Shown: piece by piece, positions 43,381 to 52,207 of the stretch
Layout of the letters: each line of letters starts with the position of its first letter
Numbering within the stretch: position 1 is the first letter of the stretch
NCBI GenBank assembly: GCA_031841125.1
Contig: CM063112.1
Span: 27,058,603 to 27,122,602, forward strand
From: Acanthococcus lagerstroemiae
Taxonomy: Eukaryota > Arthropoda > Insecta > Hemiptera > Eriococcidae
DNA length: 64,000 nucleotides
Reading direction: 5' to 3'
The notes under the pieces: model-generated
Database searches by the model: none
Told to the model about the DNA's origin: nothing
What the model saw: the letters and a program-made list of their open reading frames with translations, nothing else
Program-made: the position numbers and the translations under genes

Positions 43381-43392
43381 ATTATTTTGCAG
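43375..43392 (+). promoter_or_regulatory. Candidate 3' splice site in dapF 5' UTR
   Basis: TCATTATTTTGCAG ending at 43392 is a good insect acceptor. It lies 49 bp before the dapF ATG and just ahead of in-frame stop TAG at about 43422. If used, dapF would have a spliced leader while its coding region stays in one exon. Inference from motif only. Confidence 0.35.
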
Positions 43393-43441: not shown

Positions 43442-44248
43442 ATGATCCCATTTGTGAAAATGCACGGGACTGGAAACGATTTTGTTATCATCGATTGCCG
43501 CACGGAGTCCTATCCACCTATTGACTACACCCATATTGCAGACCGTAGAAAAGGAATCGGATGCGATCAAGTAATCCTCATCCATCCTTCGAACATAGCA
43601 ACCTGCAAAATGGATATTTATAATGTGGATGGTAGTAAAGCTGAAATGTGTGGTAACGCGGCACGGTGCGTCCTTCGGCTGGTCACTTCAGAACTCCAAA
43701 CTTCAGGCAGCATCGAGTTAGCCAATCGCGTTATCTCTGGAGAACGTTTATCAGAACGTGTTGTCAAAATTAATATGGGAAAGCCACTTTGCAACTGGGA
43801 CGACATACCCTTGCGAGAAGCTTGCGATACCTGTTATGTCAACTTTGAAATGGACAGTTTGAAGACACCAGTGGCAACTAATATAGGCAATCCTCATGTG
43901 ACGTTTTTCGTCGAGGACATAAATAGTGTTCCATTTGAAAAATTAGCCCCAAAAATCGAAAATCACCCTTTGTTTCCTAACCGGGTGAATGTTACCATTG
44001 CGAGTGTTATCAATGACCATGAAATTAAGGCACGAATTTGGGAGCGTGGAGTTGGTATTACTGAGGCTTGTGGCAGCTCGTCATGTGCTACATTAATGGC
44101 TGCCATTCGAAGAGGCTTGATCAAGAGTAACAGGGCTGTGATTCAGTTTCCCGGAGGAGATCTGACCTCTGAATTCGATGGGAAACACGTATTCATGACC
44201 GGTGAAGCGGTAATTGTGTTCAATGGTATTTACCGCAATGAACTCTGA
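43442..44248 (+). CDS. dapF: Diaminopimelate epimerase (bacterial-type, in insect genome)
   Basis: An uninterrupted 268-codon frame encodes DapF, which interconverts LL- and meso-diaminopimelate without a cofactor. That is the penultimate step of bacterial lysine synthesis and a source of peptidoglycan cross-link residue. It begins MIPFVKMHGTGNDFVIID, the family signature. The catalytic pair is present: Cys70 in AEMCGNAARC and Cys210 in ITEACGSSSC. IGNPHVTFF (148-156), FPNRVNV (178-184) and WERGVGIT (200-207) complete the fold. Length is normal for the family (~270). The ATG at 43442 is the only sensible start: an in-frame TAG lies 18 bp upstream and the protein begins at the conserved residues. 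There is no Shine-Dalgarno, no intron and no bacterial neighbour; an intron-rich helicase follows 3.5 kb downstream and AATAAA signals follow at once. Animals lack this pathway natively, so it is a horizontal acquisition. The ACGSSSCA form suggests an alphaproteobacterial donor (weak inference). No targeting peptide is evident. Confidence 0.93.
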   Translation: MIPFVKMHGTGNDFVIIDCRTESYPPIDYTHIADRRKGIGCDQVILIHPSNIATCKMDIYNVDGSKAEMCGNAARCVLRLVTSELQTSGSIELANRVISGERLSERVVKINMGKPLCNWDDIPLREACDTCYVNFEMDSLKTPVATNIGNPHVTFFVEDINSVPFEKLAPKIENHPLFPNRVNVTIASVINDHEIKARIWERGVGITEACGSSSCATLMAAIRRGLIKSNRAVIQFPGGDLTSEFDGKHVFMTGEAVIVFNGIYRNEL

Positions 44249-44383
44249 AAAATGACTAATTCATATTGACATCAGTATTGATTAAGTAGTCTGTAACAGA
44301 GCAAGTATCAACGAGGTGGTCGAGACCCAGCTGACTCTTATCTTCGCGACTAATAATTCTAATGGAATATTAAAATATTTTGA

Positions 44384-44421
44384 AATAAATAAGCTTAAGT
44401 ATAAGTGAAATAAAGAATAAA
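44384..44421 (+). terminator. Poly(A) signals of dapF
   Basis: AATAAA occurs at 44384-44389, 44409-44414 and 44416-44421, about 135-170 bp after the dapF stop. This is the usual distance for an insect 3' UTR and suggests the gene is expressed as eukaryotic mRNA. Confidence 0.5.
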
Positions 44422-44995: not shown

Positions 44996-45426
44996 GTGTG
45001 GTGGGACGTATGGCGATGCACGCATGCCAAAGTGACCCCTGAGACACCGCACGCCCGGCACCGGAAACTACCCTTTCGGGCATCGCATCAGTACCGAGGG
45101 GAACGCCTTGGGGCCGGGTCTGAGCCCCCATTTCTCCTGGCCGGAACGGTGCGCGCGTCCTGCCAGGGCCACCACGGGGTTCCCTACTGACCGAGGTCCG
45201 CACTCCCAGAGCGCTCGCCTGGAAATTTCAGGTCCCCCGCAGCCGGACGCGCTGCCTCTTCCTCTTCACTCACTCGTCGTGTGAGACTCGTCTGATTGAA
45301 GCTCCAGCCCTTGCACTGCGGGCGAGCTTCGCTGGATGGTATCCGCCGCAGCAGCAGCAGCAGCAGCAAGAGTCCAGTTTCTCCTCCTCCTTGCGTCCTC
45401 TGTCTCGACCACTCAGCCTCCATCTT
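44996..45426 (-). mobile_element. GC-rich retroposed repeat with 16-bp target duplication
   Basis: A 431-bp GC-rich block is flanked by GCAAATTGAGTTTGGT (44980-44995) and GCAAATTGAGTTTAGT (45427-45442), identical at 15 of 16 bases. Such long duplications mark LINE-mediated retroposition. Other copies are at 8170-8565, 12890-13030 and 22675-22770. It contains a (CAG)7-like run near 45350. The minus strand starts with TGAGTGGTCGAGA, loosely like a pol III A-box, so it may be a SINE. It lies 0.6 kb downstream of dapF. Confidence 0.7.
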
Positions 45427-45823
45427 GCAAATTGAGTTTAGTAATTATTGTAGTTCGTGAAAGCGAGTAGGTAGTTTCTTGTCTTGCCATTTTTGAGCAT
45501 TCAGTTGTACCCCCTTGTAGGTAGTACCCAACAGTATCCTTGAAAAAATTAGTTGATGATTTTGATCATTAATTAATCATTAGAGATTGGATCATTACAC
45601 TATACACAACAGCATAAAAAACAATGGGATGATATAATATGATTTGAGCTATGTTTCGAATGCTGAATACGATGGCGTTCACCATTTTTCTCTAGAACCT
45701 CTCTTTTTCCATAGTATTTGAAATTAAAATTCTATCAAATTTTTCTCATTTTATTCCTTTTTATTGTTGTGCAGGAATAGCTACACTGATACTGATAACA
45801 ATACTGAACGCGGTAGCCAATAG

Positions 45824-46650: not shown

Positions 46651-47187
46651 AGGAGCGGTATTCACGAAAAGTTGTTATGGTAACCACTCATAACAACTAG
46701 TCCCAAGGTGGTGTGGGTGGTTATGAGATGTTATTCAACATTGCGGAAAAAGGGTAACAACCGGTAACAACTCATAACCAGGGATGGCAAACGAAACAGT
46801 TTTTTTTTTCGTTTCGTTATTTCGTTTCGTTTGTTTGCAATCCCTGCTATTTACTGAACTCTGACTGAACTCACCCTGACTCAACTCACCCGGGAAAAGA
46901 AATGAAATTTCGATTACAGTAGGCTCGGCTACTAGTACCCGACCCTAGAAAGTGGTTGCAATAGGCTCGGCTACTAGTAGCCGATCCTAAAAATCACAAA
47001 TCAGAAAACTAGGGATGGCAAACGAAACGTTTTTTTTTTCGTTTCGTTATTTCGTTTCAATATTTTAGACAAAAATCAATCGTTATTTCGTTTCGTTTCG
47101 TTTGCCATCCCTGCGTCATAACAACTTTTTTATAATAACGGTTGTTATCATAACATCGCATAATAACTTTTCGAGAATAGTGGTCCA
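46651..47187. mobile_element. Inverted-repeat element around AACAACTCATAACAAC, with nested hAT MITE
   Basis: The outer ends carry TATTCACGAAAAGTTGTTATG and the complement TATTCTCGAAAAGTTATTATG. Next come tracts of ATAACAAC in opposite orientation. The middle is taken up by the hAT-like insert at 46779-47113. Confidence 0.55.
46779..47113. mobile_element. hAT-like MITE with CGTTTCGTTT interior
   Basis: Ends CAGGGATGGCAAACGAAAC are exact, with a further internal copy of the left end at about 47012. Flanks CTCATAAC / GTCATAAC agree at 7 of 8 if one extra base is allowed at the right end. CGTTTCGTTATTTCGTTTCG runs recur. The middle holds two copies of AGGCTCGGCTACTAGTA. Confidence 0.65.
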
Positions 47188-47757: not shown

Positions 47758-50700
47758 ATGAATAACCCCGGTTTGTATATTGATCGAATGCAAATCAAGA
47801 AATTCGCTGGTAGGTTCAACTTCATCATGTTTGGGTATCATTATTTATAGCTCGAACGTCGACGGTCATCCTCGAAAACTACTGCGTCCAAGTCGCAAAT
47901 TACTACAAGAACTCGACTTACAAGCTGGTGAAGAATTTTTCGAAAAGCAATAATGGCTTATGGGTATGTCAAGTCTCAATCCAATGGCCAGTCCCCAATG
48001 AATTCCGTGCCGAAGAGTCCAAGAAAACCGAAGCAGCCAGGGTAGCATCTTGGCTTGCGTTAGAATGGCTAAAGGTAACAATATGAAGACTGAATTTGAT
48101 ACCTTCTGTGTCTTTGGTGAATTATTGACATTCAAATTTCTTCATTTGTTTCAGAGTCAAAATAAAATTGATCAAGATGGTAGACCACTACTCGTTAGTG
48201 AACTAAACGCTTCTGCAAATTTCAGTTTGCGGCCCGGAGCACTAGAGGCTATTACACAAGTGACACAGAAATATGAAAGTGTAATATAAAATTTTATACC
48301 CCGGCATCCATTTTATTCGGCTTCATTATAGATTGCTCATGCATTTTCAACTCTTAACAGGAAATGAAACCACTTTATGAAGAATATGACAGACTGTACT
48401 TTGACAGCAACAGACGTTATTTTGATGGTATGTATTTTGACTCGGTGTATTTTAATTTTCACCGTATCAGTAACCATAAATTCTTGCTAATTCTTTTTTA
48501 GATCATGACATACCATCATACTGCAACTTAACCGAAGAAGATAAAGCTGACCGTAGTGATTTGTTACTATCCAAACTAAAGGAAATGCCGCCTAAACAAG
48601 CCCTACCAATAGACAGCTTCAGGTAGTGATGAATTACAAATTTTCGGGCCAGGCATTCGCTGTATTATATGTGTAATGCTCGGGGTTTTAATTCCAGTGA
48701 AGAAATTGTAGATATTGTCGAGAAAAATCGAGTTGTTGTTATAAAAGGAGCCACTGGTTCCGGTAAAACTACTCGAGTTCCTCAGTTCCTGTTGGATCAT
48801 TATATCAGACAACTAAGGGGAGCCGAGTGCAACATCGCTGTAACTCAACCCAGACGTATTAGTGCCACATCGTTAGCTACAAGAATCGCAGCCGAGCGAA
48901 ACGAGAACGTTAGTAGCTCTTTGATGATCATGTTCTGTTTTGAAGTTTTGGAAATGATAAAAATTTATTTGTGTAGGCGGGATTCAGCGTTGGTCATCAT
49001 ATTAGATTCAGCGTATGTTACCCCACGCAGCCAGGAACTATCATGTTTGTATCAACTGGTATCCTCCTCCAGCGGTTGTTGTTAGATCCGAGTATGTTAA
49101 AGCCTTTCTCCGCTTGTGCTTCAGTTTGAGCTTCGATATTGAACTTATTCTTTGTGTTAGTGTTAAATGATCTTTCGCACGTGATCATCGACGAGGCGCA
49201 CGAAAGAGACCTGAATATCGATTTGCTGCTTCTGCTCATGAAGGAACTGCTGGAGAAAAACAATAAGATACGTGTCGTTATTATGAGTGCGACGATAAAC
49301 GCTGAGTTGTTTCAGCAGTATTTCAACAATTGCCCGCTGATATCGATTCCTGGATTCATGCATAACGTCAACACTTATTTTATTGATGTAAGCTGGAGCA
49401 CTTATGCAATTGATTTGAACTCAACTAATATAAATCTATATAATGTAACTGCCAAGTACAAAATACTGATGGTAGGAAACACGCAGGGCCAACAAACTGG
49501 AAATCTTCTGGAAAAACAAAATATCTCGTCTTGTAGTTAGAAATTTGATATTTTTTTAAAAACGGTTTATGTAAATGGATTGTACTCGTATTTCATAGGA
49601 TGATATCATGAACCAAAATTTCGGGCAACGGCATTACGAATACGATGAACGTGAAATCAACGACAGTCTAATCCTGAACGTCGTCCAATGGATTCATCGT
49701 ACCCGGGCGCCCGGTGCCGTTCTTGTATTCCTTCCCGGGTGGTCGGAAATTTCGAAGATCCAAAAAGTACTTCAAGATAACTCCGAAATGCATGTGCTGA
49801 CTGCGCATTCTAAAATGAAAATCGAACAGCAACAACTGATTTTCGAACCGCCGCCGGAAGGAAAACGGAAAGTAATATTGGCCACTAATATCGCCGAAAC
49901 GAGTATCACGATTCCGGATGTGGTGTATGTGGTTGATTCGGGAATTGTGAGAGAAATAGGGTAAGATGCTATCCTCTTTTCTGAATGCAGATGCACCGAA
50001 CGTGTTCGTAATTATAAACTGAATTACAGGAACTACAAAGGAGTAAAAGGTCTGACCAACGTGTGGATATCGAAAGCAATCGCGGACCAAAGACGTGGTA
50101 GGGCGGGTAGAGTGACGGAAGGCGAATGCTTTCGTCTGTACTCGAGAAAGAAGTACGAATCGTTCGACGAATATCCAGTACCGGAGGTGCTGCGTGTCTC
50201 TTTGGAAAACCTTGTGATGAGAACTAAAGTTGGTAAACTTGTTATAAACTGACAACAAGCATTCGGTGAGGATTCATAACTCTTGGATGTAAATTTTGTA
50301 GGCATATACGGACGATAGATTGTGTAACACTTTATCGAAATTCCCTGAGCAACCGCCTGAGAACGCGGTGAGAGAAGCCATCATTTACCTGCAACAGATA
50401 AACGTGCTCGATCTGGAAGAAAATTTGACCGCCTTGGGGAAAAGAATCGCCATGTTTGCCTTGCATCCTCTGTTATCAGCGGCACTAGTGTACTCTGTGT
50501 TTTTTAAGTAATATCATTGAGAATTTTTTTCCATTAGGATTTTGAATTAGACCCATTACTGACATAGCATTGTTCTTACTGTTCAGTTGTATCGACCCAA
50601 TGTTGTTCGTAACATCGAACCTGAACGGAGACGCGTTTATCTTTGGTATCGACTCGAAAAGCAGTTCACGTCGCAATGTATTAAGCGAAAGTCACCCCAC

Positions 50701-52207
50701 AAATGATACTTTGGCTTCGTATAACATTTATAACAAATGGAAACACAATGATCTACTGACTCCAGTGAATGAAGAAATCATGAATCTGAATATAAAAGCG
50801 ATGGAGAATTTCAAAAGTAAGTTGTTATAAAGGAGTAATCCACTTCTTCGGCAATACTGGGCCCGCGAAATGTCTTTCGACAGCTAAAATTAAACTTACA
50901 GTGGTATGTGTATTGTCTCAAATTTGATGGGGAATTTTCTTAAATGATTCAGGCGGGTCTTTTTGGTAAGTTGTGTGGGACTGCACGTAGCTCCTTACTG
51001 AACCTTCATAAGTACGCGGCTTCTTCCATTTGCGGGAAGTTCAAAATGTCTACGTACCCAGCTGTGCTGTTTTTAAAAACGGTGTCGTTGCACTGGTATC
51101 TATTTTATAACATGTAGAAATGAAAATATACGTGTATAAAAAAAAACTTAAAGCTGAGATTCTAATGTCTAACAATTGGTACATTCGTAGAAGTATTAAG
51201 GCTGAATATGGACTCCTTATTCAAAGCACACTTGGTAACAGTGGACGTCGTGATGAAATACGAAGAAGGCACACTGGACAGCGTGGCCTTAGACTTCGTG
51301 TCTCCTATTCTGCTAGCAGCCACTGGTCGTCTGGCTGTAAATGCGAAACCGTACCGTGCCAATGGAAAAATCAATCATTATCTGTCTACACTGTTCGTAC
51401 ATTCTCAGCCGTCAAATATGCCGACTCGCGGACACTGGGACCACGCATTCATAGGGCCATGTGTTGTATGTTTTAGGGATGGGCTCAAGGTTCAAATCGC
51501 CAACGATAGCGTTAATTTCAAGAACGCCCAAGTATCGTCTCCGTTTCTAACATTCTACAACATGAACACCACTGAAGAAGGGTTTCTAAGGATATACGAT
51601 ACTGCTCAAGTATCTCCCACTGCAGCTCTGCTGTTTTGCCCGACCTTACCTCAAATTGTGAGTGTTCTGTTTCCAGTGTGCGTGATTGATTCATGACAAT
51701 ATTTCTGAGTTTGCTTGTTCGTTACAGTTCTTTGCCGATGCATCGGATACTGTCAGAGTGGCTTACCCGAATATCGAGCTGCAAATTACAGCCAATCGAG
51801 AGTAAGTGAACGGATCAATATGTTCGCAGCTAACGCTAAGAAGCGAGATCAATATGATGCTTATCGCACATGATACCTTAATCGCCGCAAATTTGTATTG
51901 GGAGGGTATCACCTGAATCCGAGGAGATACCCTCCTAATACTGCGGATGTAAAAGTATCATATAATATTGATCTTCCTCCTCTTCACATTATCTGGGTTA
52001 CTGTGAACTTTTTTAGTGATTCTGATGATGATTTACAATTACAGGGAAGTGCAGGCTCTTCTACGTCTTCGTGAAGTCATGTGGAGTTCGGTGCATTTTT
52101 TTATCACCCACCACAACAGTTACGTTATCGAACCTGAATTCATTAAAGAGTTTAGAACTCACTTACTTTCCGTACTTGGTTACGTATTAAAAAATTGTGA
52201 TAGTTGA
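47758..52207 (+). CDS. DHX30-like DEAH-box RNA helicase (15 exons)
   Basis: Exons I could join with every phase closing: 47758-47809, 47851-48074, 48155-48280, 48361-48427, 48502-48622, 48698-48908, 48977-49091, 49161-49387, 49599-49960, 50030-50228, 50302-50507, 50587-50816, 51191-51657, 51728-51801, 52045-52207 (947 aa). A double-stranded-RNA-binding domain spans about residues 22-92. Helicase motifs follow: GATGSGKT (214-221, ATP binding), TQPRRIS, DEAH (316-319), SAT (348-350), TNIAETSIT, and QRRGRAGR (522-529). A helicase-associated region and OB-like C-terminus (LRIYDTAQVSPTAALLF) follow. Among DEAH proteins the layout fits DHX30, which acts in mitochondrial RNA granules and ribosome assembly, better than DHX9 or DHX36. 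It is shorter than vertebrate DHX30 (~1,190) and has one dsRBD. Upstream of the ATG the frame meets TGA at 47662 without another ATG, but an unseen 5' exon is possible. No obvious mitochondrial presequence. Two donors are weak (GTTAGT, GTTGGT). Confidence 0.9.

Follow-up and report, generated by a model that had tools for sequence, protein, structure and literature searches.

An intact bacterial-type dapF resident in a scale-insect chromosome, with a companion lysA

An intact dapF gene of bacterial origin is resident in a chromosome of a scale insect, and the same chromosome carries a host-held lysA. DapF catalyses the second-to-last step of lysine synthesis, the conversion of LL- to meso-diaminopimelate, and LysA catalyses the last. 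We consider it likely that an ancestral Anaplasmataceae dapF now acts as a host epimerase which, together with host LysA, would complete lysine from the intermediates of a partner. The window referred to below is the whole stretch of 64,000 nucleotides that was analysed (C7:27058603-27122602), and feature positions are counted from its first letter.

Results

The window encodes a full-length diaminopimelate epimerase

The gene and the putative signals around it are as follows.

43442..44248, plus strand: dapF, diaminopimelate epimerase, 268 aa in one open frame, of bacterial origin
43388..43392, plus strand: TGCAG, a splice-acceptor-like pentamer 49 bases before the dapF ATG, possibly the boundary of a 5′ untranslated exon, though such pentamers are common by chance
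44369..44421, plus strand: ATTAAA at 44369 and AATAAA at 44384, 44409 and 44416, candidate animal-type polyadenylation signals by consensus match only, 121-173 bases past the dapF stop

The open reading frame runs intact from ATG to TGA as a single intron-free frame of 268 codons. Its product scored 241.5 bits against NCBIfam TIGR00652, for which the curated cut-off is 114.65, and 163.6 bits against PF01678. These results are in agreement with the initial annotation, which had described a full-length, intron-free dapF with catalytic cysteines at positions 70 and 210. Both Cys70 and Cys210 were invariant in all 44 aligned rows (the window protein plus 43 of the 120 relatives listed below), as were N12, Q43, N61, G71, N72, N150, N183, E201, R202 and G211 (44/44); residue 212 was S in 33 rows and T in 11. 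We take these residues to have the catalytic and substrate-binding roles of their counterparts in H. influenzae DapF, which was aligned with the window protein. By sequence, the window protein had 17 distinct relatives in the PDB, namely 16 DapF and one O-ureido-serine racemase. An AlphaFold model (mean pLDDT 95.9, pTM 0.91) gave a similar picture, the first ten PDB structure matches being nine DapF and one O-ureidoserine racemase (TM 0.87-0.91 by query). On the strength of family score, active-site residues and predicted fold, we identify the protein as a diaminopimelate epimerase.

dapF is part of the insect chromosome

The gene lies about 27.1 Mb into contig C7 (65,944,902 bases) of an assembly (G000) of 658,055,089 bases in 438 contigs, in which C7, C8 and C9 measure 65.9, 63.9 and 59.8 Mb and C10 measures 1.6 Mb. 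The window is free of N and has a GC content of 0.377. Downstream of dapF and on the same strand, an insect gene begins 3,509 bases after the dapF stop.

47758..52207, plus strand: DHX30-like DEAH-box helicase gene of 15 exons, an insect gene whose proximity ties dapF to the host chromosome
47758-47809, 47851-48074, 48155-48280, 48361-48427, 48502-48622, 48653-48908, 48977-49091, 49161-49387, plus strand: helicase exons 1-8, spliced by hand
49599-49960, 50030-50228, 50302-50507, 50587-50816, 51191-51657, 51728-51801, 52045-52207, plus strand: helicase exons 9-15, spliced by hand

When the exons were joined by hand, all 14 introns were of the GT-AG type and the product was 962 aa long without a stop; the helicase of 15 exons that had been placed 3.5 kb from dapF on its strand is therefore intact. 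Its closest named relative was from the scale insect Parthenolecanium corni (61% identity, 1268 bits), followed by an unlabelled protein at 57%, after which identity fell to about 35%, in proteins of a stick insect, a planthopper and aphids. The host is accordingly a scale insect. A whitefly was rejected as the source, since Bemisia DapF is enterobacterial and this helicase is closest to that of a scale insect among named proteins; P. corni itself was rejected on the 61% identity of the helicase, and Planococcus citri itself on the 55-56% identity of its LysA. Third-position GC was 0.43 in dapF, 0.46 in the helicase and 0.49 in host lysA. No gene was recognised upstream of dapF, where the longest stop-free frame in positions 1-43400 had 149 codons. 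None of seven chosen window ORFs, including one that overlaps a helicase exon, matched Pfam, and Rfam gave no match over the window.

Two features of the DNA between dapF and the helicase were also seen. Positions 45001-45500 have a GC content of 0.60, a CpG ratio of 0.86 and a short GCA repeat, and possibly belong to a mobile element or a promoter. Repeated CGTTTCGTTATTTCG stretches occur at 46780-46850 and 47010-47115, with 'agggatggcaaacgaaa' and its reverse complement at their ends, and probably represent copies of one short mobile element.

The position of dapF inside a 65.9-Mb contig and beside an intron-rich helicase confirms that it is resident in the scale-insect chromosome. It is extremely unlikely that contamination or misassembly joined a bacterial gene to an insect contig. 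A bacterial genome, contig C11, does occur in the assembly, and the upstream flank of dapF yielded no recognisable insect gene. However, the DapF of C11 is just 33% identical to window DapF. In addition, the sequence is continuous without N, the downstream neighbour has introns, the short stop-free frames of the upstream side are unlike those of bacterial DNA, the third-position GC of dapF is host-like, and a related DapF sits on a 10.96-Mb contig of the fungus gnat Bradysia.

Trees place dapF among Anaplasmataceae-type epimerases

Relatives of window DapF were taken as the best 120 of 7,843 passing proteins. The best-scoring of these 120 was a Bradysia coprophila protein named 'diaminopimelate epimerase-like' (P0001), 62% identical over 100% of the query and encoded on the long contig mentioned above; next came ten unlabelled proteins at 61-65% and one at 58%. 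Named bacterial DapF among the 120 were those of Candidatus Mesenet (54-55%, the closest), Ehrlichia (50-51%) and Wolbachia (45-53%). No protein named from P. corni or Planococcus citri was among the 120 listed of 7,843, the database containing one or more proteins of each species, and no DapF relative was found on viral contigs.

In tree 1 (76 rows: window DapF, 70 of the 120 listed relatives and 5 of 12 bacterial loci), window dapF was sister to ten Bradysia-type proteins (100/90), while P0007 branched outside these (100/99), followed by the Mesenet-type group (99/94) and, further out, by Wolbachia and Ehrlichia. Tree 2 (32 rows) gave the same order around window dapF (99/89; 100/98; 99/95). 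Mesenet thus shares the larger clade with the window gene but is not its direct sister, and a topology joining window dapF with five Mesenet-type rows was rejected (p-AU 0.004). Joining window dapF with P0007 was not rejected (p-AU 0.072), although the free trees put P0007 outside the window and Bradysia-type proteins; the branch order of these three is therefore unsure. The end branch of window dapF measured 0.27-0.32 changes per column.

The ten Bradysia-type DapF (P0001-P0006 and P0008-P0011) form one clade (100/99, tree 1), of which B. coprophila P0001 is the only named member; this clade points to an old bacterial dapF in flies. Their identity among themselves is 67-85%, so that they look like the proteins of several species. 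Because one of the ten alone is named, 'fungus gnat clade' is an extrapolation for the other nine. Bradysia DapF has alanines at positions 213-214, where window DapF has serines.

The protein search and the trees agree on a bacterial origin of dapF, with the window gene nested in Anaplasmataceae-type DapF, and they support an alphaproteobacterial donor of that type. The initial annotation had also named an alphaproteobacterial donor, on the grounds of the CGSSSCA form of a motif in the protein. The donor class survives by way of the trees, but the motif was discarded as a donor mark: it was held by 0 of the 120 listed relatives, among which CGSAACA (50), CGTGACA (44) and CGSGACA (21) occurred. 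The C11 bacterium was likewise rejected as the donor, given the 33% identity of its DapF. Compared with the DapF of ten bacterial loci, C11 DapF was 30-40% identical, a spread that singles out no taxon for C11.

A host lysA lies on the same chromosome

A search with TIGR01048 found lysA at C7:42197869-42199071 on the minus strand, as a single 418-aa frame scoring 414.5 bits (cut-off 297.9). It is about 15.1 Mb from dapF and on the opposite strand. Short frames to its right are presumably exons of a FERM-domain gene. Three weak matches on contig C1 (27.8-30.7 bits, below the cut-off) were dropped; they may be fragments of a different decarboxylase with the same fold.

The listed relatives of host LysA began with P0241, an unlabelled protein 92% identical to it; after three further unlabelled proteins (59-60%) came P. 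citri LysA (56%) and another unlabelled protein (55%), followed by Mesenet and Armadillidium nasatum proteins, both at 53%. In the LysA tree (34 rows, 33 of them from the 120 listed relatives), host LysA, P0241, P0243, P. citri LysA and three others fell on one side of a branch with support of 100/99.8. The simplest reading of this tree suggests one lysA transfer before the host lineage split from the mealybugs; possibly lysA was instead acquired twice, from closely related donors. No LysA so named from Bradysia was among the 120 listed LysA relatives. The A. nasatum protein (P0250), from a 67-kb contig, lies among Anaplasmataceae-type LysA and may reflect a further transfer or come from the contig of a symbiont.

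The bacterium in the assembly has its own lysine genes

An exon-by-exon search of the assembly found neither dapA nor dapB on host contigs. The same kind of search for Mur ligases gave six matches, all on C11 and none on host contigs. As these searches work through one exon at a time, host genes interrupted by introns may have escaped them; the Mur search also failed to find the insect folylpolyglutamate synthase, which we expect to have the searched Mur domain.

C11 comprises 1,506,484 bases and contains the dapB locus twice, with 3,669/3,669 bases identical and the copies 1,452,100 apart, indicating a bacterial chromosome of about 1.45 Mb (1.452) that is circular and was assembled with overlapping ends. 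It carries its own dapA, dapB, dapF and lysA and is thus not in need of host dapF. The only true bacterial 16S match in the assembly was on C11 (1528.7 bits), with 5 of 4,842 candidates scored, so that a further bacterium could be missed. By eye, the signatures of this 16S look Bacteroidota-like. Three other matches, with equal scores, were on contig C2; one of them, read directly, we take to be a eukaryote-type small-subunit gene. Within the scope of this 16S search, C11 was the sole bacterial genome found. The initial annotation had proposed checking whether the endosymbiont lacks dapF; no obligate symbiont without dapF was found in the assembly.

Two further contigs are AT-rich, namely C18 (L036; 281 kb, GC 0.17) and C19 (L037; 257 kb, GC 0.24), the latter 92% covered by frames of at least 100 codons. 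Frames in the 8 kb seen look primase-helicase-like and protein-kinase-like, which we take to suggest large DNA viruses.

Discussion

The intact dapF, its residence in the host chromosome, its Anaplasmataceae-type origin and the presence of a host lysA are most simply joined in the following way. An ancestor of the scale insect would have acquired dapF from an alphaproteobacterium, as yet unsampled, that belonged to the Anaplasmataceae, the family that includes Wolbachia, Ehrlichia and Mesenet, and the gene would then have settled as a resident nuclear gene. Its product would be an active epimerase, presumably expressed in symbiont-bearing cells, that converts LL- to meso-diaminopimelate, which host LysA would decarboxylate to lysine. 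A bacterial partner would supply the LL-diaminopimelate, and the insect would carry out the last two steps of lysine synthesis.

The precedents cited in the initial annotation, mealybugs and whiteflies, are well founded. Host-held dapF and lysA of Rickettsiales origin are described for the mealybug P. citri in the available text of PMC8659303 and PMC5664097, and host-held dapB, dapF and lysA for the whitefly Bemisia in that of PMC8659303 and PMC4607527. For Bemisia, E. coli complementation tests of the three genes are also described in the available text of PMC8659303. The same text gives Bemisia dapF as intron-free, whereas the table of PMC4607527 marks it with an intron. A host-held dapF and lysA is therefore an already known kind of arrangement. 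In the available part of PMC12510726, a lysine term is among those described as enriched in the transfers to Coccomorpha; in a term search, dapF did not appear in the main text of that paper or of PMC10158165, both on scale-insect transfers, and 'diaminopimelate' did not appear in the main text of the Bradysia genome paper PMC12051294, as far as these texts were available. Literature searches combining Bradysia with diaminopimelate epimerase found nothing, and those combining scale-insect families with dapF or diaminopimelate epimerase found nothing among the matches listed.

Planococcus citri is the closest parallel, being a scale insect whose host genome, according to the accessible text, holds both genes with a Rickettsiales origin, and its LysA falls in one clade with the LysA found here (100/99.8). 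It nevertheless represents another lineage, with a LysA 55-56% identical to that of the present host, and it has transferred peptidoglycan genes (PMC5664097, available text), whereas no Mur ligase was found here on host contigs. Bemisia tabaci resembles our insect in that a host-encoded DapF serves lysine synthesis (PMC8659303, available text). It differs in pairing an enterobacterial dapF with a planctomycete lysA, as given in the available text of PMC8659303 and PMC4607527, where both genes here are of Anaplasmataceae type, and in having a host dapB, which the exon-by-exon search did not find here.

The initial annotation left the role as lysine or peptidoglycan synthesis, and the evidence leans towards lysine. 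For mealybug symbionts, with their mosaic cell wall, a supply of host meso-diaminopimelate has been proposed, and a host DapF feeding a symbiont's peptidoglycan would suit the position of the enzyme at the branch point of lysine and peptidoglycan synthesis. P. citri, moreover, has bacterial-origin peptidoglycan genes beside dapF (PMC5664097, available text). We nevertheless regard this role as improbable here, because host lysA, which lysine synthesis alone needs, is present and all six Mur ligase matches were on C11, although intron-split host genes could have escaped this search.

Lysine synthesis thus remains the preferred role, and the companion lysA makes that part of the proposed symbiosis more likely. 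The other part, that host DapF fills the gap of a present symbiont, does not hold for C11, which has all four genes tested. Gap-filling is also not universal in scale insects, given that the Burkholderia symbionts of eriococcid scale insects keep a complete lysine pathway (PMC10689751, available text). Either the obligate symbiont may be absent from the assembly or the DapF and LysA module may act on diaminopimelate of any source.

The latter possibility leads to salvage, in which DapF and LysA would make lysine from diaminopimelate provided by dead bacteria, by the turnover of symbiont walls or by plant sap, independently of symbiont gaps. Both host genes encode terminal steps that work on any diaminopimelate, C11 shows no gap, and a related DapF occurs in the fungus gnat Bradysia, which is not an obligate sap feeder. 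However, no LysA named from Bradysia was among the 120 listed LysA relatives, and we judge salvage as such unlikely to be the role. It is more doubtful still that dapF was transferred and now lies idle, drifting towards decay, a very improbable state even though C11 has a dapF of its own: the frame is full length and every checked active-site residue has been kept over an end branch of 0.27-0.32. At such depth, an idle gene would not be expected to have escaped both stop codons and catalytic changes.

What is new here is a further scale-insect lineage with host dapF and lysA, and an unexpected DapF relative in a fly. With the former, host-held lysine genes are known not only from mealybugs and Bemisia but also from a lineage for which Parthenolecanium is the nearest named relative in our data. 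The occurrence of dapF and lysA without detectable mur genes or dapB on host contigs helps to separate lysine from peptidoglycan as the driver of such transfers. The kinship of scale-insect and fungus-gnat DapF raises the question of repeated donation by one bacterial lineage. A bolder and rather unlikely reading is that these DapF, which come from two unrelated insect groups, are mutually nearest among known relatives and are nested in an Anaplasmataceae-type lineage, reflect repeated donation by one unsampled bacterial lineage or a move from insect to insect after a first transfer, and that host DapF and LysA form a free-standing module from diaminopimelate to lysine, with C11 needing no help. 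If this is true, the module would belong to the insect in its own right and would not be a patch for a single symbiont.
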